Assembly (NCBI GenBank): GCA_005889495.1 | Contig: VBHA01000161.1 | Coordinates: 1 to 34,191, forward strand | DNA from: Chloroflexota bacterium | GTDB lineage: Bacteria > Chloroflexota > Dormibacteria > Dormibacterales > Dormibacteraceae | Direction of reading: 5' to 3' | Length of the DNA stretch: 34,191 nucleotides | In this document: in pieces, positions 8,088-23,588 of the stretch | How positions within the stretch are numbered: the first letter of the stretch is position 1 | Layout: each line of letters starts with the position of its first letter | The notes under the pieces: model-generated | The model's input: the letters and a program-made list of their open reading frames with translations, nothing else | Databases searched by the model: none | Told to the model about the DNA's origin: nothing | Program-made: the position numbers and the translations under genes

Positions 8088-9641
8088 TCATTTCCGCGCC
8101 ACCCATGTCGCGACCTGGACCCTCGAGTCGAAGCCGAGCTTGGCGAGGATGTGGTGCACGTGGTTGTCGACCGTCCGCTCCGAGAGGTAAAGGCGTTCGG
8201 CGATCTCGCGGTTGCTCAAGCCCTGGGCGAGGAGCTGCGCGACCTCCCGCTCGCGCCGGCTCAGGGCCGCGGTCACGACCGGGTGCGGCAGCTCGACCGG
8301 CGCGGGTTGGTCACCGCCCGCCGCGAACAGGCTCCATGACCCCGGGACGCCGGAGAACTCATGCGTGCCGCGCTCGGCGAACTCCAGGCCCGAGCCCACC
8401 ACCAGGTCCTTGACCGTGCTCGACACGACCACCTCTCCCGGCCTGGCCGCGGCCATCACGGTCGAGGCGACGTGCAGGGCCATGCCGCGAGGGCGGCCGC
8501 CCGCGACCTCGCACTCGCCGGCGTGGACCCCGGCCCGGATCCGCAGGCCGAGGTCGAGCAGCTCATCGCGGATCTCGAGAGCGCACCGAATCGCGCGGGC
8601 CGTGCCGTCGAAGACGGCCGTGATGCCCTTCTCTCCGGCCTCGATCTCGCGGCCGGAATATCGCGTGAGGGCTTTGCGCACCACCGAGTGGTGCCGGTCG
8701 ACCAGGTCAGTCCACTGCTTGCCGCCAAGCCACACCGCATGCGCGCCGGCCTGGGTGACCTGGGTGCAGAGGACGGTCGCCAGCATCGTCTCGGGGGCGG
8801 CGCTGCTCCGGGCCCCGGTCAAGAATTCCTCGATCTCCCCGAGCACCAGGTCGGCATCGCCGAAATATGGCCAGTGGTCGATCGAGTCGAGCTCCATCAT
8901 CCGCGCCCCGGGAATGTGCTCGGCGATGTAGCGGCCCGCCTCGATGGGGGCGACCTTGTCCTGGTTGGCGTGGATGACCAGGGTCGGCACCCGGATCGAC
9001 GGAAGGATGTCGCGGATGTCGATCAAAGTGTTCATGCGCAGCAGGTCCCGGGCGTCGCCGGGACTCGCGCTCATCTGCGTGAATTTGCCCCACCATGCCG
9101 CCACTTCCGGGTTGGCCAGCTGGCTTGGCGCATAGGCATCCATGCCGGCGCCCGTGCCCCAGATCTGCGGCACCCCGGCCGTCCGTTCCTCGAATTTCGC
9201 GGCGGGCATGCCCCACGGGAAGCCGGGACGCTGCAGGCGCGACGGGTAGCTGCCGTTGATGATCAGGGCGGCGGTCCGCTCCGGATAGGTGGCCGCGAAC
9301 AGCGCGGACATCACGCCGCCTTCAGAGATGCCCATCACCGCGGCTCGCTCCGAAGCGACCGCGTCCAGCACCGCGCGGACATCGTCCATCCGCTGCTCCA
9401 GGGTCGGCAGGGGGTGGACCCGGTCCGACATGCCGGTGCCGCGCTTGTCGAAGAGGATGAGGCGTGAGAACGAAGCCAGGCGTTCCAGGAACCTGGCCAT
9501 GGCCGGCAGCTCCCACACATACGCGAGGTGCGAGACCCAACCCAGGACCAGCACGAGGTCGATGGGCCCGTCACCGACCACCTGGTAGGCGATGCTGACC
9601 TCGCCGCTGCGCGCGTAACGAGCCCCTGTGAACAAGTCCAC
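8088..9641 (-). CDS. Alpha/beta hydrolase - degenerate class III cyclase - LuxR HTH regulator
   Basis: A 517-residue three-domain protein. Residues 1 to about 275 are an alpha/beta hydrolase with the nucleophile elbow GISEGG (Ser106), LFDKRGTGMSDR, a likely acid in HANQDK and a likely His in DSIDHWPYFGD. Residues about 285-445 match the adenylate/guanylate cyclase homology fold (AGEKGITAVFDGTARAIRCA, IRAGVHAGECEV). However, the usual FTDIVGST metal Asp is Gln in TVLCTQVTQAG, and the second GDG Asp is also gone, so catalysis is probably lost. Residues about 460-517 are a LuxR helix-turn-helix (LSRREREVAQLLAQGLSNREIAERLYLSERTVDNHVHHIL). The likely role is a ligand- or ester-sensing transcription factor. 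It starts at GTG 9641 with a weak ribosome site; a TTGACA on the minus strand at 9712-9707 may be its -35. Confidence 0.88.
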   Translation of the reverse strand: MDLFTGARYARSGEVSIAYQVVGDGPIDLVLVLGWVSHLAYVWELPAMARFLERLASFSRLILFDKRGTGMSDRVHPLPTLEQRMDDVRAVLDAVASERAAVMGISEGGVMSALFAATYPERTAALIINGSYPSRLQRPGFPWGMPAAKFEERTAGVPQIWGTGAGMDAYAPSQLANPEVAAWWGKFTQMSASPGDARDLLRMNTLIDIRDILPSIRVPTLVIHANQDKVAPIEAGRYIAEHIPGARMMELDSIDHWPYFGDADLVLGEIEEFLTGARSSAAPETMLATVLCTQVTQAGAHAVWLGGKQWTDLVDRHHSVVRKALTRYSGREIEAGEKGITAVFDGTARAIRCALEIRDELLDLGLRIRAGVHAGECEVAGGRPRGMALHVASTVMAAARPGEVVVSSTVKDLVVGSGLEFAERGTHEFSGVPGSWSLFAAGGDQPAPVELPHPVVTAALSRREREVAQLLAQGLSNREIAERLYLSERTVDNHVHHILAKLGFDSRVQVATWVARK

Positions 9642-9732
9642 CGGCCAGTCTAGAAGGGGCCATTCAACCGGTGGCCGTCGCTTTCAGGTGAGACCCGGTG
9701 ACGTGGTGTCAAGTGGCCGGATTTACCGACGC

Positions 9733-9762
9733 TTGACCTGGAGGTCGGGCGGCTGCTATATC
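9733..9762 (+). promoter_or_regulatory. Sigma-70-type promoter with palindrome, upstream of mini-gene
   Basis: TTGACC (9733-9738), an 18-nt spacer and TATATC (9757-9762) form a good housekeeping promoter pointing at the 31-codon gene, with an expected start near 9770. The palindrome GACCT-GG-AGGTC (9735-9746) overlaps the -35 box and is a candidate operator. The gap is shared with the divergent hydrolase-LuxR gene, so one regulator could act on both. Confidence 0.5.
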
Positions 9763-9779
9763 GCGTTCAATCGCCGGCA

Positions 9780-9791
9780 TGAGCCGGCTCA
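9780..9791. promoter_or_regulatory. 12-bp perfect palindrome in the mini-gene leader
   Basis: TGAGCCGGCTCA (9780-9791) is fully self-complementary and lies between the predicted transcription start and the ribosome site of the mini-gene. It could be an operator or a small leader structure. Function is inference. Confidence 0.3.
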
Positions 9792-9810
9792 CTTCACAGG
9801 AGGCGCTGCC

Positions 9811-9906
9811 ATGCGCAAAATCGGTTTCGCTTCGATCCTGTCCTTCGCTCTATTGCTCTTGAGCGCGCTGTCGGTCCTGGCTGACAGCACGGGACCGGGC
9901 GTCTAG
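9811..9906 (+). CDS. 31-residue signal-peptide mini-protein, candidate secreted peptide precursor
   Basis: A very short gene with strong expression signals: promoter upstream, AGGAGG (9798-9803) 7 nt before ATG 9811, and a TAG stop at 9904-9906. The product has a textbook signal peptide (MRKIG, then a Leu/Ala/Ser hydrophobic core). A signal-peptidase site after VLA at residue 24 would leave only DSTGPGV. A signal peptide with a 7-residue tail is the form of many exported peptide pheromone precursors. The next co-directional gene is an XRE-TPR regulator, the architecture of RRNPP receptors. Nothing here proves secretion or signalling. It could instead be a leader peptide or a chance short frame, though the ribosome site argues against the last. 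Confidence 0.5.
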   Translation: MRKIGFASILSFALLLLSALSVLADSTGPGV

Positions 9907-9919
9907 GCGAATGTAAAGT

Positions 9920-10005
9920 CCCGCGTGGCTTGACTGGGACGTCACCGACGGCGAGGCTGCGATAAACTCGCCGCCATCAGGCGTCTTCAGGCAAAGCCAC
10001 GCGGG
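9920..10005. repeat. 12-bp inverted repeat spanning the 5' end of the TPR regulator
   Basis: CCCGCGTGGCTT (9920-9931) and its exact reverse complement AAGCCACGCGGG (9994-10005) are separated by 62 nt. They straddle the region where the regulator's true N-terminus should begin. They may form a long-range RNA hairpin in the leader or two half-sites for DNA looping. A separate self-complementary GTCGACGTCGAC lies at 10018-10029. Confidence 0.45.
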
Positions 10006-10071
10006 CGTAACCCGGGGGTCGACGTCGACACCCATCTGATCAGGCAGGCGCGTCTGGAGGCCGGCCTCAGC

Positions 10072-11334
10072 ATGGCCCAGCTGGCCGGCACAGAGATCAC
10101 GCGCCAGGCCATCTTCCTGATCGAGGCGGGCAAGATGCGCCCCTCGATGCGCACGTTGAAGATGATCGCCGCGAGGACTGGCAAGCCAGTCGAGTTCTTC
10201 ATCGACGGGCCCAGCGGCCGGCTTGCCGCCGATGAGATGGCCAACGACCCCCGCGTCGACCAGCTCCAGGCGCTGTGCCTTCAGCAACAGTTCGGTGACG
10301 CCATCGAGCTCGCCGTGCAGCTGTTGAACGAGAGATTGCCGAGACGCGTCGAGGCTCACGTTCGCCACTACGCCGGCCAGGCTTTCGTGCGGTCTTCACG
10401 GCCTGACGAAGGTCTCGAGCAATTGCGCCGAGCCCAGGTTCTCCTGGAGGCCGAGCCCGACCCCTGGCTCGCGGTCGAGTGCGCCGACTGGGAGGCGAGC
10501 GCTCTCTACTTGAAGGAAGACGAGCGGGCATTGGCGGTGGCCGAGAACGCGCTGCGGTTGTGCAGGTTGACGTCGCCTCGGCTGCCGGGCACCGAGGCGC
10601 GGATCCTGGAGCACATCGGCGCGATCCACGTCAAGAACCATGACTTCGACCGGGCCGTGGCGTGCTACGAGCAGGCGCTCGAGGCCGCCGGCGCGGTCCG
10701 TGACCTCGCCCGCGTCAGCAGGACCTACCACGGCCTCAGCATCGCCTATCAGGAACGCGGAGAAATCTCGCGAGCGATCGAGTTCACGCACAAAGCCCTG
10801 GCCCTATACGCGCTCGAGAACGACAACGCCCTCCTCGCTCGCGGTGAGAACGAGCTGGGCCTGCTGCTGATGAAACAGGGTCAGGTCGCGCGAGCCGAGG
10901 CCACGTTCCGTTCCGCGCTCGAGCATTTCGACCAGTCGGGCACCCAGCCCGCGAAGAGCCACGTGCTCCTCAGCCTTGCGGAGCTCTTTCTCAGAACCGG
11001 CCGGCTCGACGAAGGGGTCGACACTGCGGACACGGCCATCAACCTCGCTCGGGAGCTTGGCGAGGTCATGGCCGAGAGCACGGGCCATCAGCTGCTGGGT
11101 CAGCTGCACGAACGCGGAGGCAAGCCTCAGCTCGCGGACAAGGCGTTCGCGACAGCGATCCGCGTGCTCAAGGAGCACCACCTGCGCGCCAGGCTCGCCG
11201 AGGTGCACGCGTCTTACGCCGAGGTTCTCGAGGCGCGCGGCGAATCGCGGCGCGCGGCCCGCCACTGGAAGGACGCGGCCCTGCACGCGCTTCCAGCGCG
11301 CGACCTGGGCACACCGCGCGCGGGCGCGCGCTGA
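10072..11334 (+). CDS. XRE-family HTH / tetratricopeptide-repeat regulator (RRNPP-like architecture)
   Basis: A transcriptional regulator of at least 420 residues. The N-terminal helix-turn-helix reads AQLAGTEITRQAIFLIEAGKMRPSMRTLKMIAARTGKPVEFFI, the XRE pattern. It is followed by about seven or eight TPR helix pairs from residue 80 to 400, for example FDRAVACYEQALEAAGAVRD and ISRAIEFTHKALALYALEN. TPR-XRE proteins commonly bind a short peptide in the TPR superhelix and switch DNA binding. ATG 10072 is the only canonical start. The frame is open back to 9934, and the upstream codons encode HTH helix 1 (DVDTHLIRQARLEAGLS), so translation probably starts at a non-standard codon such as CTG 10036 or ATC 9976. 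It is co-directional with the mini-gene 165 nt upstream; the C-terminus is Arg/Ala-rich. Confidence 0.82.
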   Translation: MAQLAGTEITRQAIFLIEAGKMRPSMRTLKMIAARTGKPVEFFIDGPSGRLAADEMANDPRVDQLQALCLQQQFGDAIELAVQLLNERLPRRVEAHVRHYAGQAFVRSSRPDEGLEQLRRAQVLLEAEPDPWLAVECADWEASALYLKEDERALAVAENALRLCRLTSPRLPGTEARILEHIGAIHVKNHDFDRAVACYEQALEAAGAVRDLARVSRTYHGLSIAYQERGEISRAIEFTHKALALYALENDNALLARGENELGLLLMKQGQVARAEATFRSALEHFDQSGTQPAKSHVLLSLAELFLRTGRLDEGVDTADTAINLARELGEVMAESTGHQLLGQLHERGGKPQLADKAFATAIRVLKEHHLRARLAEVHASYAEVLEARGESRRAARHWKDAALHALPARDLGTPRAGAR

Positions 11335-11431: not shown

Positions 11432-11573
11432 CTCGACCTGCCGGAGAGGAAGGACGGCGTGGTCATACGACCTGAGGTGGGGAGACCCTTGGCCTGGATT
11501 GGGTGTTGTGCGGTTGGTGTCTGCCTACCTTTTGCGCGCGCCTGCCCCACCTGCTGGGGGAGCCGCTAGGAGG
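11432..11573 (+). other. Leader region of the giant gene with possible 36-codon upstream frame
   Basis: Between the predicted transcription start and GTG 11574 lies a 36-codon frame at 11459-11569. Its GTG start follows AGGAAGGA, it is Cys-rich, and it ends in a TAG that overlaps the AGGAGG ribosome site of the giant gene. Such an overlap can couple translation of the two frames. I see no riboswitch consensus here. The frame may also be chance. Confidence 0.25.
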
Positions 11574-20500: not shown

Positions 20501-23500
20501 TCTTTCCGTCAGCGGCCTCTCCGCCGCGGTGGTCGCGCCGCAGGTCAACGCTGGCGTGACGAACGGCTTCATCCTCCTCAACCACCCTTCGGGTACTGGC
20601 ACCCCGGCCCTCAACTGGACGGATACAGGGCTCGCGGACGCGGGGCTGACGATGAAGGTGACCACTGCACGCGTCGGCGGCGACATCAACCAGATAGACG
20701 TGTTCGGCGTGGTCAGGGGATCCGCCAGCTTCAGCGTGGGATGGAGCCTCGTCACCACCACGGATCCGTCGCTCACCGATGCTTCGCTGTTGACGGGTAG
20801 CCTCAGCGTCGATCCGACCAAGAACCAGCAGCTTCAGCTGGGGACATCGGGCTTTGGCATCACGCTGACAGACGGCACCATCAACCTGGCGTCGCTCACG
20901 GACCCCGCGCCAAAGCCGACCGAAGTGCCGAGGGTCCTTCCGGTCGTCGTCCAGCCTGGACCCAGGGTGGACGTCATCACGACCGCCAAGGGCGGCAAGG
21001 GGGCGACAGTCCAGGTGCTGCGCACGGTCAACGCCAATGCCACGCTCGGCCAGGTCGAGACGCTGACGGTGCTCGCCTCCGCCGGCTCTTTCACGCTGCG
21101 CGGAGCATCTGGCGATGTGCCCGCCGGCCTGGTGTGGAACGCGTCATCCACGGCGGTGCAGGCTGCTGTCGCCGGGCTTGCGAGCGTCAAGGCGCTCACG
21201 AACGTCGCGGCATGCGGGACGACCTGCGTGACGGTCGCGCCCATGTCGGTCGCCCCCGAGGGCAACGTCTACACGATCACCTTCGACGCGAGCCTTTCGA
21301 ACGTGCCGACGCTCACGACTGACGCGAGCCAGCTGGTCGCGCGTAACGAGCAGCAGCAGATCTCAGTGTGGAACGCCAACGCCGGAACGTTCACGATCAC
21401 CGACGGCGCCCACTCCGCCACGATCAAATTCGACCTCAGCGACCTGAGCACGGCGCTTGCAAGCATGTCGGCGGACGTGAAGATCGCCGGGGATCCACCC
21501 GGTACCGCACCGCACAACGGCTTTTTCACCGTCGAGTTCAACGGCGCCTCAGTCCGCGGTGCGCACGTCAACCCGCTGGTCGCCGACCCGGCTCGCCTGA
21601 CAGGCGCCCTGAATAATGGCCAGCTGGCCGGTGACGTGCACTTCGGGGCCACGATCTTCAACAACCCGTCGTCCACCGGGGTGATCTCTCGGCAGGGTGC
21701 TGCGGCGGTCAACATCCGGGTGGTCGACCCGGGCAGCGCCACCGCCAACGGCGTGCAGGCGTACGACGTCAGCGGCGCCGTCGGCGGCTATTACCAGCTC
21801 CAGTACTCGTTCGGCACCATCGCGCCGTTCATTGTTGAAGTCTCCAACCCGATCTCGGCTTTCGCGAGCGCCGCCGAGGTCGAGTCGATCCTCGCGGACA
21901 TGCCATTGATCGGTGGTCCCACGCGAGCGCACAACGTCTCGGTCTCGCAGACCGGCAGCACATACGTCGTCGTCTTCGTCGGCGCCCTGTCCAACAGAGC
22001 GATCAACCCGCTTACGTGGGCTGATGCCGCGTCGAACCACCTGATCGCCCAGGACCAGCAGCAGATCTTCCAGATCCTGAACGCGACCAGCGGGTCCTTC
22101 ACGCTGAGCCTCGGCCTCCAGGTCGACGGCAGCCCGATCAGTGTCTTCACCAACGCGATCAACTACCCCGCGACGTCGGCCGCCGTGAAGGCTGCGCTCG
22201 AGGCGGCGTTGACCAAGGTGACGATCGGAGGCATGCCGCTGCCCGCCACGGCGACCGTCGCCCAGGTCGGGACCACCTACATCGTCGACTTCAACCTGAG
22301 CGGTCCGCTGGACGCAAACGCCCACGACACCTCGTTCGACAACATCCAGCCGATCGCGGTCGACCGCCAGCTGTCGGCCATCGACAGCAACATCGCCGAC
22401 TGCGGCAGCAGCCAGCCCGGCGGCACGTCGCCGCACTGGGCCTTGATCCCTGGCATCAAGACCGGAACCCTCGCCGCCGCGACCAGCGGCCTGACCTCTC
22501 TCGTGTACACGGCGGTGAACGGTGACGCCCCCGTCGCGGGCGATGTTTTCGTCATCGATACAGGTGGAAATCAGGAACAGTTCACCGCCAACACGGTCAC
22601 ACCGACGGGCACCGTCACCAAGCAAAACGACCCGAAGGGTCCGACGCCGACCTTCCGTCTGGACATCGCCGGGCTGATCAAGAACCACGCGGGCGGCATC
22701 ACGGCGACGGCGGCGGCGCAGGGCCAAAAGCTCGGCGTCTTCTCGGCTCCGGTGAAGGCCGGCGACAGCTCGTTCCTCGATAGCCCGATCGTGGGCGGCC
22801 AACCCTTCGTGCACGAGACCCTGATCCTGGACACTGGGTTGGGCGTTCGAGAGCCGGTCATCGTGTCTGCCGTCCAGACCTCTGGATCGGACTACCTGGT
22901 CACGATCATCGGCCAGTTCCAGTTCAAGCATGCGGTCGGCGCCCTGGTCTCCACTGCTCTCGACCCGACGACTCTCGAGGGCACGGTCACCTACTCCAAG
23001 CTCGCGTGGGACGACACCTTCTGGGATCACTACGCCGGTGACGGGAACTTCTTCGTCTACCCGGACGCGAACTTCGTCCAGCTGCTCGCCAACCCCGGCA
23101 ACTGGGACCACGGCGACGGCAATGAGAAGGGACGGATCGAGGTCGAGTGGGACCGCGCGCCGGCGAACGGCTCGGGCGCAGACCTCGCATCGGGCGCGTT
23201 TCCGACCTGGGCTCTTCCGGTCGTCGGTGACTGGGTCCACGTCGTGGGCGCCCTGATCTGCGACTGCGGACACCCCGAGGGCGGCTTCCGACGTCGCCTG
23301 GCACTGCCGCGGTGGTTCCGGGCTACGCGGCGCTGGGCACCGTGCAGACCACCCGGGCCGACATCTTCGGCTCCAGCGTGGGCAGCAAGGCGCGGCTGCA
23401 GGAGAACTGCTTCCTGCCGATCTTCGCCGGGGTGCCCGGTGCCGTGTTCGGCAAAACCAACCCCACCGACAAGTGCCTCAACAAGCTCGACTGGTACCAG

Positions 23501-23588
23501 CCGCTGGCCTTCGACGAGAACGGGCAAGCCGCCGTCTACCACCTGTTCGTGCCGGCGCCGGCGAAGCCGGCCGGCAACTTCAACGTGA
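11574..23588 (+). CDS. Giant modular surface protein, part 1 (5' part; frameshift near 23290)
   Basis: N-terminal half of a giant exported protein (about 3,905 meaningful codons, then an out-of-frame Arg-rich tail to the stop at 23588). GTG 11574 directly follows AGGAGG and opens with an uncleaved-type membrane segment (LKLGAVPVVWAVSSVAVVSIVA). Modules in order: an unnamed alpha/beta region to about 12350; FN3 and Ig-like domains (12360-16030); a ZU5-like segment (16045-16395); a Big_1-like domain (16400-16675); a GGDGDDIF...WALTG...ENIQGG module (16740-17120); an array of about 140-residue repeats (17330-20909); FTL modules (21051-22370); and the first half of a WDHY/DCGH domain (22960-23290). 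The likely role is adhesion or cell-surface scaffold. Nothing enzymatic was recognised. An open frame further upstream to 11424 is rejected because of the promoter. Confidence 0.85.
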   Translation: MSVAATSWKTVALKLGAVPVVWAVSSVAVVSIVAQSFSSGVLTGPTSSTSLQASRPSSVWPSGPISMDQFPGTSDVNIRFAPFTSAATVQGWGDRYGLDMVGYSPAFGRSTFSLPRVTISQLTSDTALVTFPPLAQSNDVSTFIADNHLSVIRWVREPRADAIANERVALVQLPKLNLRRLDPAAGTWAAQLPAHLDVERVKSWAQGAGLRYISYDQNTGETHVYAPGTAVQPYASAAAAAIALLRQRLQDALSKIHPVSPSSSVPGGLRVTAGSSGILMTWSAARGASAYAIYRGTSVNGPYSYIGQTTTLSFSDSSGTSGTLFYRVMSLRACAASVTDRGGCQTASPALDTRYASAPSAVVSIPQSGTSPAGAPSGLTGVSASPGARLTWNSVTGATAYAIFSSPTSGGAYTYIGQTTTTGFTDTAAPDGATSYYRVMAMHTCPAGTTDLGGCQASQPSFDPRYATVPLPVAVPASGGTTTGGGTTPPPAQVTVQATASDGHVTLTWTAVPGASAYHVFRSAAGGQAVAVGTTTDTSLVDTGGQAGVSYSYEVDPDMPAGSPAVTPATATAVWQAASSKPTVTTMEPSTGTLTGSVQLTLRGRSGDGAAVVTWLIGGNGGWTPIGTVTAQRAGGDPLAWTSTLTWNTSAVGDGAVSLRATAADGSGNTTQVDQTYEIVNGRPPAPTAFAATPEAGAVALSWQQPSYTDAASYALYRDETADPLAVLNPDARSYVDAQPSPGQHTYRLVMRGSQGQLSDTVSASAAVLSGMAAPTVIDFQAKLPTGADLDSEATVSSRLLLTAKIAPSGALVFEYQIDGGVWTQVDATTVCQTGQCDADWDTALLPPGHYKVRGRAGSTTSNGHGFHRGAPSVPLAPSGISVSMAGGGVLIRWSAPPASEPVAYSVWRRTGVSWQLLARVAGREFLDNAYLPGIATDYRIEAINSDGQEGAPSPTAHITPLAQAAAAPAAGVGTPHGLAALSAPGAVTLYWIAATNAHGYSIERALAAGGPFAIVATTSETSFVDRPGPIGGQAYYQVRATSGSQTSEASSAVPAVLIPVAAVYVNSSKLSVATGAPPSLVLAKPEILLGGTDGSPPNASTLVGRAVQTTVQGTSTANISAARIETQTLGGSWQPLAVLVAVTTGSGWTAIGDVVTAGLPAGTYSVRAVAIAPNGSTVDTTATRQLDVVHSVPAPVALDPQIDGSDVLLSWTAPVTSTAVTYSVYRSVGTSGFVQIASGVTGTTYRDRYLGNATAMRYRVSAVDLVGNSSPMSQAASITTPLAWDAPSIMLISPLPAEAAALESAILEIEARTSARAGVASVTMSYMPSGGTAWIGLPALPLPSSVGGGASLNLQGGTLWAAVWNTSALHGNYSVRLDVTDSRGRTSEQITTFTFIGSAPRGPPLVNLTITPLLGGLRLTWPADGVNYQVRRSANGTSGVVRSIGRSSNGSLDDTDVVPGLTYAYQLWTLGGPASRSVTASASSGSGVGVVTPQAGGSASSADGKATVTFAPGMVNSSIAVSVKAAAGQASLAYDLSAIDTEGAAVHNFNGLPMLTIHYPTSGVAPAAIYYLSPDGRSLPLTSSVNTTAHTISAALPHFSTYLAGLPAAIDLAANPATPVAAGTSVTLTATVTDASNNAVEQAPVTFTSDGGSTLDQASCTTDAGGHCSVHVSDAAFEVVNATATVDSLSKTVSVTFQQDWAVALANGTGHNVSLTASGSDVTITVDGTPSTRPAATISSLTVSGGDGDDIFSVDASVSSLAFPITFAGAGGSNTITGPDADSKWALTGVNAGKLAFGTTAVSFTDTENIQGGTAKNAYTYGDSAGVTGSITNATGSTVKDLTLGGFIHLSGDYSFGTPHQVTVVVKTDANPTGSSLSGVWMTTFGVSGGTAFIGAGPGTAGAAGLQGALDSFAVALFVHLDTVTPSNSLAWEAAGIHMDASIVGIPGVTLAAKGIGVSFNGRASDGSFLDLSQVTDGGVPGPVVVPTGLSSSLTLDFPTAKEHAEVLSASVGVGSFVLAHGQFSTDKSTVDVTDPAYTGSASLLAVSVKNAEVFVGSGASFDTTTGAIVRTGAIGFYATGIDVDVATVKPASTDPADQTSFTGVQASVTSAGLQGIDHLILTVDSGTVKVNRATDSTGADSSTLLTWANVKDSVGGAAVPALTLASTDTYSIAGDVTVDLAGLVKGSASVSLKQTLFTSAALSLSNAPLLAGSVTVDSTKGQQVTLGTAEFGATVNNASISFASLSDPSTGKSWFGLDGKSIGASLVGPQLSGSVTDGQVQLNQESGTGATAMNWGDVTGSGLTLSGELAVLAGDVTGLSALSVLDGSATFKFTRSMVSTSGPNPVVTDGAMLAGQITVSVAKSQAITVGTTAFGVRITSLTLDFASLSDATGHNWFALSATGLGGTLTGPSLSATVGGGHVTINEAPDAMPVMDWGAITGSGLTLSTPGAEIAGDLTGLNVFDVLSGSASFLVARTVVSTSSPNPNLAGAVLLYGQLNVNSATQQLTLGSEAFGFTVKNVSLKFAVMSEPGSAAKSWFGLDAEGLTGQLNGPGLQGGITGGSVKLNEVFVNEDRLQIDEEADAEPLDWSRSGLSSAGLTLSGNVAEVAGDITGLNAFDVVTGGATFSASRTYVTTSDPQLVNAPLYTGTISFSGSQHLRLGTTAFGVAVTGGSLHLAALKSAGQTWFGLDADNVMGTLDAPGLHATVGNGVIQINEASGAATPLDWRQDGLQAAGLSLHGELISVGADMINLDAFELVTGSASFKVAKTLVTISSPSLNGAPLLSGSVTISGGQHLQFGAAAFGVNVTGGSLAIAALTDPATGRSWFGLHATAVAGHLVGPGVSADVSAGEVKLNKASGTGATALNWTQTGLTDTGLNLSGPAASVSADISNLDVFKVVGGGASFSVTEEPISTSAPNQVLSNAPLLFGSITISPAKHQELTLGNDAFGIHVTAAIVNFAVLSDPASDHSWLGLSVSGLSAAVVAPQVNAGVTNGFILLNHPSGTGTPALNWTDTGLADAGLTMKVTTARVGGDINQIDVFGVVRGSASFSVGWSLVTTTDPSLTDASLLTGSLSVDPTKNQQLQLGTSGFGITLTDGTINLASLTDPAPKPTEVPRVLPVVVQPGPRVDVITTAKGGKGATVQVLRTVNANATLGQVETLTVLASAGSFTLRGASGDVPAGLVWNASSTAVQAAVAGLASVKALTNVAACGTTCVTVAPMSVAPEGNVYTITFDASLSNVPTLTTDASQLVARNEQQQISVWNANAGTFTITDGAHSATIKFDLSDLSTALASMSADVKIAGDPPGTAPHNGFFTVEFNGASVRGAHVNPLVADPARLTGALNNGQLAGDVHFGATIFNNPSSTGVISRQGAAAVNIRVVDPGSATANGVQAYDVSGAVGGYYQLQYSFGTIAPFIVEVSNPISAFASAAEVESILADMPLIGGPTRAHNVSVSQTGSTYVVVFVGALSNRAINPLTWADAASNHLIAQDQQQIFQILNATSGSFTLSLGLQVDGSPISVFTNAINYPATSAAVKAALEAALTKVTIGGMPLPATATVAQVGTTYIVDFNLSGPLDANAHDTSFDNIQPIAVDRQLSAIDSNIADCGSSQPGGTSPHWALIPGIKTGTLAAATSGLTSLVYTAVNGDAPVAGDVFVIDTGGNQEQFTANTVTPTGTVTKQNDPKGPTPTFRLDIAGLIKNHAGGITATAAAQGQKLGVFSAPVKAGDSSFLDSPIVGGQPFVHETLILDTGLGVREPVIVSAVQTSGSDYLVTIIGQFQFKHAVGALVSTALDPTTLEGTVTYSKLAWDDTFWDHYAGDGNFFVYPDANFVQLLANPGNWDHGDGNEKGRIEVEWDRAPANGSGADLASGAFPTWALPVVGDWVHVVGALICDCGHPEGGFRRRLALPRWFRATRRWAPCRPPGPTSSAPAWAARRGCRRTASCRSSPGCPVPCSAKPTPPTSASTSSTGTSRWPSTRTGKPPSTTCSCRRRRSRPATST
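12360..16030 (+). repeat. Eight FN3-like and four Ig-like domains in the giant protein
   Basis: Recurrent fibronectin-III units start near nt 12360, 12700, 13050, 13630, 14200, 14500, 15150 and 15780. Typical strands are VTLTWTAVPGASAYHVFRS, a middle Val-Gly-Thr-Thr strand and YYRV/YSYEV. Interleaved Ig-like units near 13310, 13890, 14800 and 15430 carry W-T-x-x-G...WNTSAVGDGAVSLRATA-type strands, resembling Big/Ig domains of bacterial surface proteins. These would form a long rod that moves the distal repeats away from the membrane anchor. Confidence 0.8.
16045..16675 (+). other. ZU5-like plus Big_1-like domains of the giant protein
   Basis: Nt 16045-16395 reads VVTPQAGGSASSADGKATVTF, then APGMVNSSIAVSV, and ends LPHFSTYLAG, the strand pattern of ZU5-like segments in bacterial surface proteins. 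Nt 16400-16675 reads ANPATPVAAGTSVTLTATVTD, APVTFTSDGGSTLD, CTTDAGGHCSV and ATVDSLSKTVSVTFQ, a Big_1 (invasin/intimin-type) domain with two cysteines. Together they form the junction between the FN3 rod and the repeat array. Confidence 0.65.
17330..20909 (+). repeat. Repeat array A: about eight units of a beta-rich ~140-residue module
   Basis: A repeated unit with the landmarks FGVxVTxGSL, SLSDP, SWFGLDATGL, GxLxGPxL, VxLNxASGTGA, LxWxxxGL, VAGDLTxLxVFDVVxGSASF and APLLxGS. The Trp of the WFGL motif lies at nt 18339, 18765, 19191, 19638, 20058 and 20493. This gives periods of 426, 426, 447, 420 and 435 nt (140-149 residues). Two longer, more divergent units precede (near 17360 and 17880). I recall similar unnamed modules in other giant bacterial surface proteins. 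The last unit stops after SLTDPA at 20909 and resumes at 29120. Confidence 0.85.
21051..22370 (+). repeat. FTL-module cluster 1 (about four copies)
   Basis: Four diverged copies begin near 21051, 21345, 21780 and 22047. The consensus is QQQ-x-I/L, AxxGSFTL, an inserted loop, SAAxVxAALExL, NVxVxQxGxTYxVxF and VGALSNRxIxPLT. The same pattern occurs, as I recall it, in giant planctomycete-type proteins and in tail or capsid-associated proteins of actinobacterial phages. It is probably a small alpha/beta carbohydrate- or surface-binding module. The named function is unknown. Confidence 0.65.
23286..23292 (+). other. Apparent 1-nt deletion / frameshift in the giant gene
   Basis: Up to about 23289 the meaningful frame has codons starting at multiples of three (…DCGHPEGGF). 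From about 23291 the meaningful frame is one base earlier (…SPGTAAVVPGYAALG) and stays open to the window end. Adding one base after TTCCG restores GGF-R-T-SPGTAAVV, which continues the domain smoothly. The original frame instead becomes Arg/Pro/Ser-rich and stops at 23588. This is either a sequencing or assembly error, or a real mutation splitting the gene. Confidence 0.85.

Follow-up and report, generated by a model that had tools for sequence, protein, structure and literature searches.

Gene content of the locus

The window, by which we mean the whole 34,191-nucleotide stretch of DNA that was analysed (contig VBHA01000161.1), has a GC content of 66-71% and comes from a Chloroflexota bacterium whose draft genome totals 2.73 Mb over 201 contigs. 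Here, a 31-codon gene lies directly ahead of, and co-directional with, a gene for an XRE-TPR regulator (Table 1). A preliminary description of this DNA had read the small gene as having a promoter, a strong ribosome site, and a signal peptide that would release only DSTGPGV. The sequence confirms these features, with a predicted signal-peptide boundary of VLA/DSTGPGV, and the promoter boxes are kept in the close orthologues L006, L007, and L008. The regulator call was likewise upheld by Pfam matches to HTH_3 (2.6e-8) and TPR_12 (1.5e-20). Moreover, the AlphaFold2 (AF2) model of this putative receptor (mean pLDDT of 92.9) consists of an HTH and a TPR superhelix of nine helical hairpins. The non-Firmicutes setting is also supported, as Spo0A_C is absent in all 81 sampled genomes of the host phylum (Bacillus subtilis control positive), and we infer on this basis that the host is non-Firmicutes.

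Table 1. Positions of the features of the peptide-receptor pair in the window.
Feature	Position	Strand	Basis
Peptide-gene promoter, sigma-70-type: TTGACC (9733-9738), 18 nt, TATATC (9757-9762)	9733..9762	+	Sequence
Inverted repeat GCCGGC-N4-GCCGGC, between promoter and Shine-Dalgarno	9773..9788	.	Kept in clade A
Shine-Dalgarno AGGAGG of the peptide gene	9798..9803	+	Sequence; GGAGG kept in orthologues
Prepropeptide gene MRKIGFASILSFALLLLSALSVLADSTGPGV (stop after)	9811..9906	+	31 codons; conserved family, coding constraint
Predicted mature heptapeptide DSTGPGV, after signal-peptidase site VLA	9883..9903	+	Ala at -1 invariant
Inverted repeat around the receptor start, left arm CCCGCGTGGCTT	9920..9931	.	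Arms kept in three further orthologues
Receptor, XRE-HTH and nine TPRs	9976..11334	+	Pfam, alignment of starts, AF2; AUC start at 9976 inferred
Inverted repeat around the receptor start, right arm AAGCCACGCGGG, within the opening codons of the receptor	9994..10005	.	Arms kept in three further orthologues
Codon of Asn280 (numbering from 10012), sixth TPR, helix A	10849..10851	+	Invariant in the tabulated receptors with a peptide

When the neighbourhoods of orthologues and of two more distant loci were compared, the pair alone was common with the window. The divergent gene at 8088-9641 (-) encodes an alpha/beta hydrolase with a cyclase-like part and a LuxR-HTH, and is LipJ-like (NCBIfam 1.3e-113, below cut-off). 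Its suggested sharing of control with the pair found no support, since the gene is not conserved beside it; with only the pair conserved between neighbourhoods, we rejected this gene as a part of the system. A phage origin of the pair was also rejected, with no match in a phage collection. Downstream, a 36-codon GTG frame (MVIRPEVGRPLAWIGCCAVGVCLPFARACPTCWGSR; 11459-11569), which has a Shine-Dalgarno and a TTGACA/CACAAT promoter-like pair upstream, stops just short of the GTG (11574) at which a giant gene starts; it is possibly a second signal-peptide mini-gene or a leader. The giant gene (11574-34189) specifies a secreted-type protein with one Big_1 domain, and its frame shifts around 23300-23588 before staying open to the window end, which could reflect a frameshift (real or from assembly) in a gene of more than 7000 codons or else two overlapping genes.

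Conservation and evolution of the pair

Receptor homologues were collected from 61 genomes, and the DNA upstream of them was inspected. As the preliminary description had anticipated, a mini-frame with a conserved signal and a variable end stands ahead of most homologous receptors. The four close orthologous peptides are MRSFILSSVLALAALMLTVVTVLADSTGPGI, MRRFGLASILAFCLLVLTALSVLADSTGPGV, MRRFILSSVLAAAMFVLTLATVFAGSTGPGI, and MRKIIFSALFAFALLVANLGTVLADSTGPHI, and ahead of more distant receptors the signal architecture is unchanged but the tails differ (GSWPPGT, GPIGPTP, DTICHCS, GGVAPCCS, DGIGPCC, and more), many of them ending in Cys-Cys. In the peptide alignment, M1, R2, and A24 (position -1) are invariant, and position -3 is occupied by V, A, or S. 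The predicted cut leaves tails of 6-10 residues, a prediction for which no peptide was measured; because the cleavage site was picked by an A-x-A-like rule, only the invariance of A24 counts as independent. Another family (L073-L076), whose receptors are 28% identical, carries MRRFL[NT]PW..CAEVWPNP[TM] at the same position. The host genome itself has a second peptide-receptor pair on contig C126 (tail DGIGRCC) and an orphan receptor on contig C155.

A search of the 61 whole genomes with the peptide profile gave 42 matches below 1e-5, the next match being at 1e-3, and 41 of the 42 are located directly ahead of a receptor; the exception (G021:C154) is at a contig end. Most of the 42 had themselves gone into the profile, so what is informative is that matches elsewhere are nearly absent. 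In held-out genomes, which did not enter the profile, eight of nine new matches precede a receptor, and the ninth (L110) precedes a regulator of a different type. A fixed filter for signal, Shine-Dalgarno, and cleavage site passed 42 of 67 receptor upstream regions versus 8 of 6000 random control windows, with one real orthologous peptide among these eight. Among 300 genomes from the phylum, peptides linked to a receptor turned up only in the host's own family and in one genus of a second family, and a scan of named genomes for the receptor found just three relatives, all distant and partial (a Chloroflexi bacterium, an actinomycete, and a Ktedonobacteraceae bacterium). In G209 and G135, which belong to other families of this phylum, the peptide matches were rejected as signal peptides of larger frames without a receptor.

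About 19 receptors lack a peptide, nearly all of them in one subclade, and this counts against a pheromone function. The LGKGHVTAP-type subclade comprises 16 receptors, including a paralogue in the host genome, with no upstream peptide (the upstream DNA is missing for two of the 16), and here either the peptide was lost or the receptor senses that of another locus. L002 and its relatives in this subclade represent a second receptor paralogue that is widespread in its genus, peptide-less, and sometimes without the otherwise invariant Asn280, and that may be an orphan listener. In another genus, L033, L047, and L069 (genomes G027 and G036) have upstream mini-frames with unrelated signals and the tails SWTAFPPCC, GSWSPFAP, and ANPWYGP. 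L110 itself (G362:C168, reverse strand from ~325) is a family peptide, MRRFGLALLLATIGMLSTAAIALADYIGPHVPTS, ahead of an ORF that, judged by eye, is SARP/BTAD-like and not XRE-TPR; a swap of receptor type is possible, and the case counts against pairing of a pheromone with an XRE-TPR receptor.

Want of coding constraint on the mini-frame had been set beforehand as a possible refutation, as had its absence or lack of conservation beside orthologous regulators. Neither was seen, and the constraint turned out to be clear. Among 37 compared peptide-gene pairs, which are not independent, pS is 0.43 and pN 0.19, with pS exceeding pN in 35, and the differences by codon position are 278/168/438. In clade A, conservation is higher in the predicted mature tail than in the signal (tail pN of 0-0.07 versus pS of 0.36-0.91), and several pairs of the Cys-Cys clade show faster change in the tail than in the signal. 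DSTGPG[VI] is nearly fixed within its clade, while other clades carry other tails that track the receptor tree: STGP and IGPT tails each form one clade with 100% support, and the tail labels need 8 changes on this tree versus 30 when shuffled.

These patterns bear on two other explanations. We think it unlikely that the mini-gene yields a small secreted effector of an antimicrobial, adhesive, or metal-binding kind, its production controlled by an XRE-TPR regulator that senses something else, though the linkage, export signal, and tail diversity would suit a secreted product equally, as would the Cys-Cys endings of many tails. With 6-10 residues, the tails would be very short in this role, the tail type is bound to the receptor phylogeny, the clade A tail is under strong purifying selection, and no conserved immunity, maturation, or exporter gene was found beside the pair in the compared neighbourhoods. 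We give least credence of all to a small hydrophobic toxin with an XRE antitoxin, a proposal which draws on a small hydrophobic peptide adjoining an XRE protein. Against it, the A-x-A-type cleavage site with its invariant Ala does not fit a toxin retained in the membrane, which would lack a cleavable signal, conservation in clade A is highest in the tail and not in the hydrophobic part, nine TPRs are unlike small antitoxins, and the peptide matched no toxin or defence family.

Intergenic repeats and the receptor start

The HTH of the receptor starts 5' of its first ATG (10072), such that a start there would cut this domain, and no in-frame ATG, GTG, or TTG occurs between the stop at 9931-9933 and 10072. 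In clade A, four of five receptors lack these codons ahead of the HTH. Moreover, clade A orthologues share aligned AUC or AUA codons (AUA in L009) situated 6-9 nt past a conserved -10-like box. Given the missing standard start and these aligned codons, the receptor mRNA is probably leaderless with an AUC start at 9976, although this is an inference from sequence comparison.

Palindromes around the promoter had been put forward as hints of autoregulation. The one at 9780-9791 survives as part of the conserved GCCGGC repeat, and the other (9735-9746) is not conserved; part of it is absent in most orthologues, and we rejected it as an operator. In L009, the GCCGGC repeat reads GCCAGC..GCTGGC, which constitutes a compensatory change, and the element could be either an operator or a 5' UTR hairpin. 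At the place of the CCCGCGTGGCTT/AAGCCACGCGGG repeat, L010 has an unrelated 13-bp repeat, and loci of the IGPT clade have a 15-bp hairpin with a 6-nt loop at the receptor start. Mean folding z-scores at the receptor start are -2.8 in loci with a peptide and -1.2 in those without, and control stretches within these genes give -0.3 to -0.4. Covariation in the hairpin is weak for the CC clade and modest for the IGPT clade, where two pairs changed on both sides and 39 of 500 shuffles reach the cell count. No known RNA family was found in 9500-10300, and whether the CCCGCGTGGCTT/AAGCCACGCGGG repeat acts as RNA or as an operator remains undecided.

With a repeat between the mini-frame and the receptor HTH, and with the frame upstream and co-directional, one could suppose a leader ORF whose translation controls the receptor in cis (by attenuation or coupling) and whose product has no later role. 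We consider this quite improbable, and the reasons are conservation at the amino-acid level with third-position changes, the cleavable-signal pattern, a peptide-to-receptor distance that varies between loci, and the receptor's own upstream promoter-like box. Compared with a pheromone and its receptor, the leader ORF, the effector, and the toxin-antitoxin pair each account for fewer of the facts.

Proposed signalling mechanism and relation to known systems

The recurring linkage, conserved signal, variable end, and coding constraint support the original proposal of an RRNPP-like pheromone and receptor, and we put the probability that the pair is a self-contained peptide-signalling cassette, RRNPP-like in its working and outside the Firmicutes, at roughly 0.72. 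As the two genes recur together in dozens of related genomes and the end of the peptide varies, the host bacteria probably use short peptides to communicate in a Bacillus-like manner. The 31-residue prepropeptide would be exported by Sec and cut after VLA by signal peptidase I, and this cut alone would free DSTGPGV, which would accumulate outside the cell. An Opp-type oligopeptide permease would then re-import the heptapeptide for binding in the concave TPR groove of the adjacent XRE-TPR protein, and the altered DNA binding of the receptor would affect how the two genes, along with unknown targets, are expressed. Every dynamic step is inferred here, from secretion through re-import and direct binding to autoregulation, and so is the sign of the regulation. 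As for the machinery, the host genome has 11 SBP_bac_5 matches with linked permease genes, several Opp-type loci (genes only), one signal peptidase I, and peptidase genes. When DSTGPGV was tethered to the receptor by readthrough translation, which is a weak test, AF2 left the peptide disordered (pLDDT of 27) and undocked.

Taken jointly, and with only slightly more belief than doubt, we would see here a large family of pheromone/TPR-receptor cassettes in a non-Firmicutes phylum, in which signal peptidase alone frees a pheromone of 6-10 residues, a genome holds several specificity groups (here, two pairs, with DSTGPGV and DGIGRCC, besides an orphan receptor), the inverted repeat over the leaderless receptor start adds a second control layer, and the origin may be independent of the Firmicutes systems. 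The papers on RRNPP signalling that we located treat it as a trait of the Firmicutes (Bacillota), the group that large surveys cover (PMC10075063, PMC9765709). In the literature on RRNPP, quorum sensing, and peptide pheromones in Chloroflexi, Actinobacteria, Dormibacter, and Limnocylindria, we found no earlier report, with subscription papers and preprints being outside the scope. A conserved and diversified peptide-receptor family in this high-GC lineage, known here from fragmented genomes only, would extend short-peptide quorum sensing beyond the Firmicutes. Concrete heptapeptides are now on hand for testing, and common descent versus convergence with the Firmicutes systems becomes addressable.

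Among known regulators, those of the AfsR/SARP type share TPR similarity with the receptor (NCBIfam AfsR model at 3.9e-18, far below cut-off), and one family peptide (L110) precedes a probable SARP-like gene. However, their DNA-binding domain is a different one, and we know of no adjacent peptide ligand for such regulators.

Foldseek placed LGN and designed TPRs first for the receptor, followed by phage Phi3T Rap, RapF, and plasmid pLS20 Rap, and a profile search had generic TPRs on top with Rap at 4e-11. Among the PDB matches, no bacterial pheromone receptor does better than the Rap chains; that they rank below unrelated generic eukaryotic and designed TPRs counts against the RRNPP-like reading, as does the lack of a match to any RNPP-specific Pfam model, and the overall similarity is of the generic TPR kind. 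Like Rap proteins, the receptor has a conserved Asn in a TPR helix (Asn280 here, Asn225 in RapJ). The RapJ residue touches the backbone of Phr, and the Rap proteins of B. subtilis conserve it (PMC3601965). Asn280 is invariant in 25 of 25 tabulated receptors with a peptide, versus 13 of 18 peptide-less ones, and falls near RapF residue 226 by offset. As a superposition could not be made, its likeness to the Asn of the Rap groove is suggestive only. Unlike the receptor, Rap lacks a DNA-binding domain, and the phr genes are located downstream. With no RNPP-specific Pfam model matched and a generic fold similarity, common descent with Rap, Rgg, NprR, PlcR, PrgX, or AimR is not established.

There is also a parallel with RRNPP(A) systems that have a DNA-binding receptor (PlcR-PapR, NprR-NprX, ComR-ComS, and AimR-AimP), where a small exported propeptide is likewise encoded beside a cytoplasmic HTH-TPR receptor, with a short, variable C-terminal peptide and with specificity groups. 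Differently from these, the pair described here has a non-Firmicutes host, a receptor of nine TPRs, and a peptide gene upstream of it, from whose product signal peptidase alone should free the final peptide.
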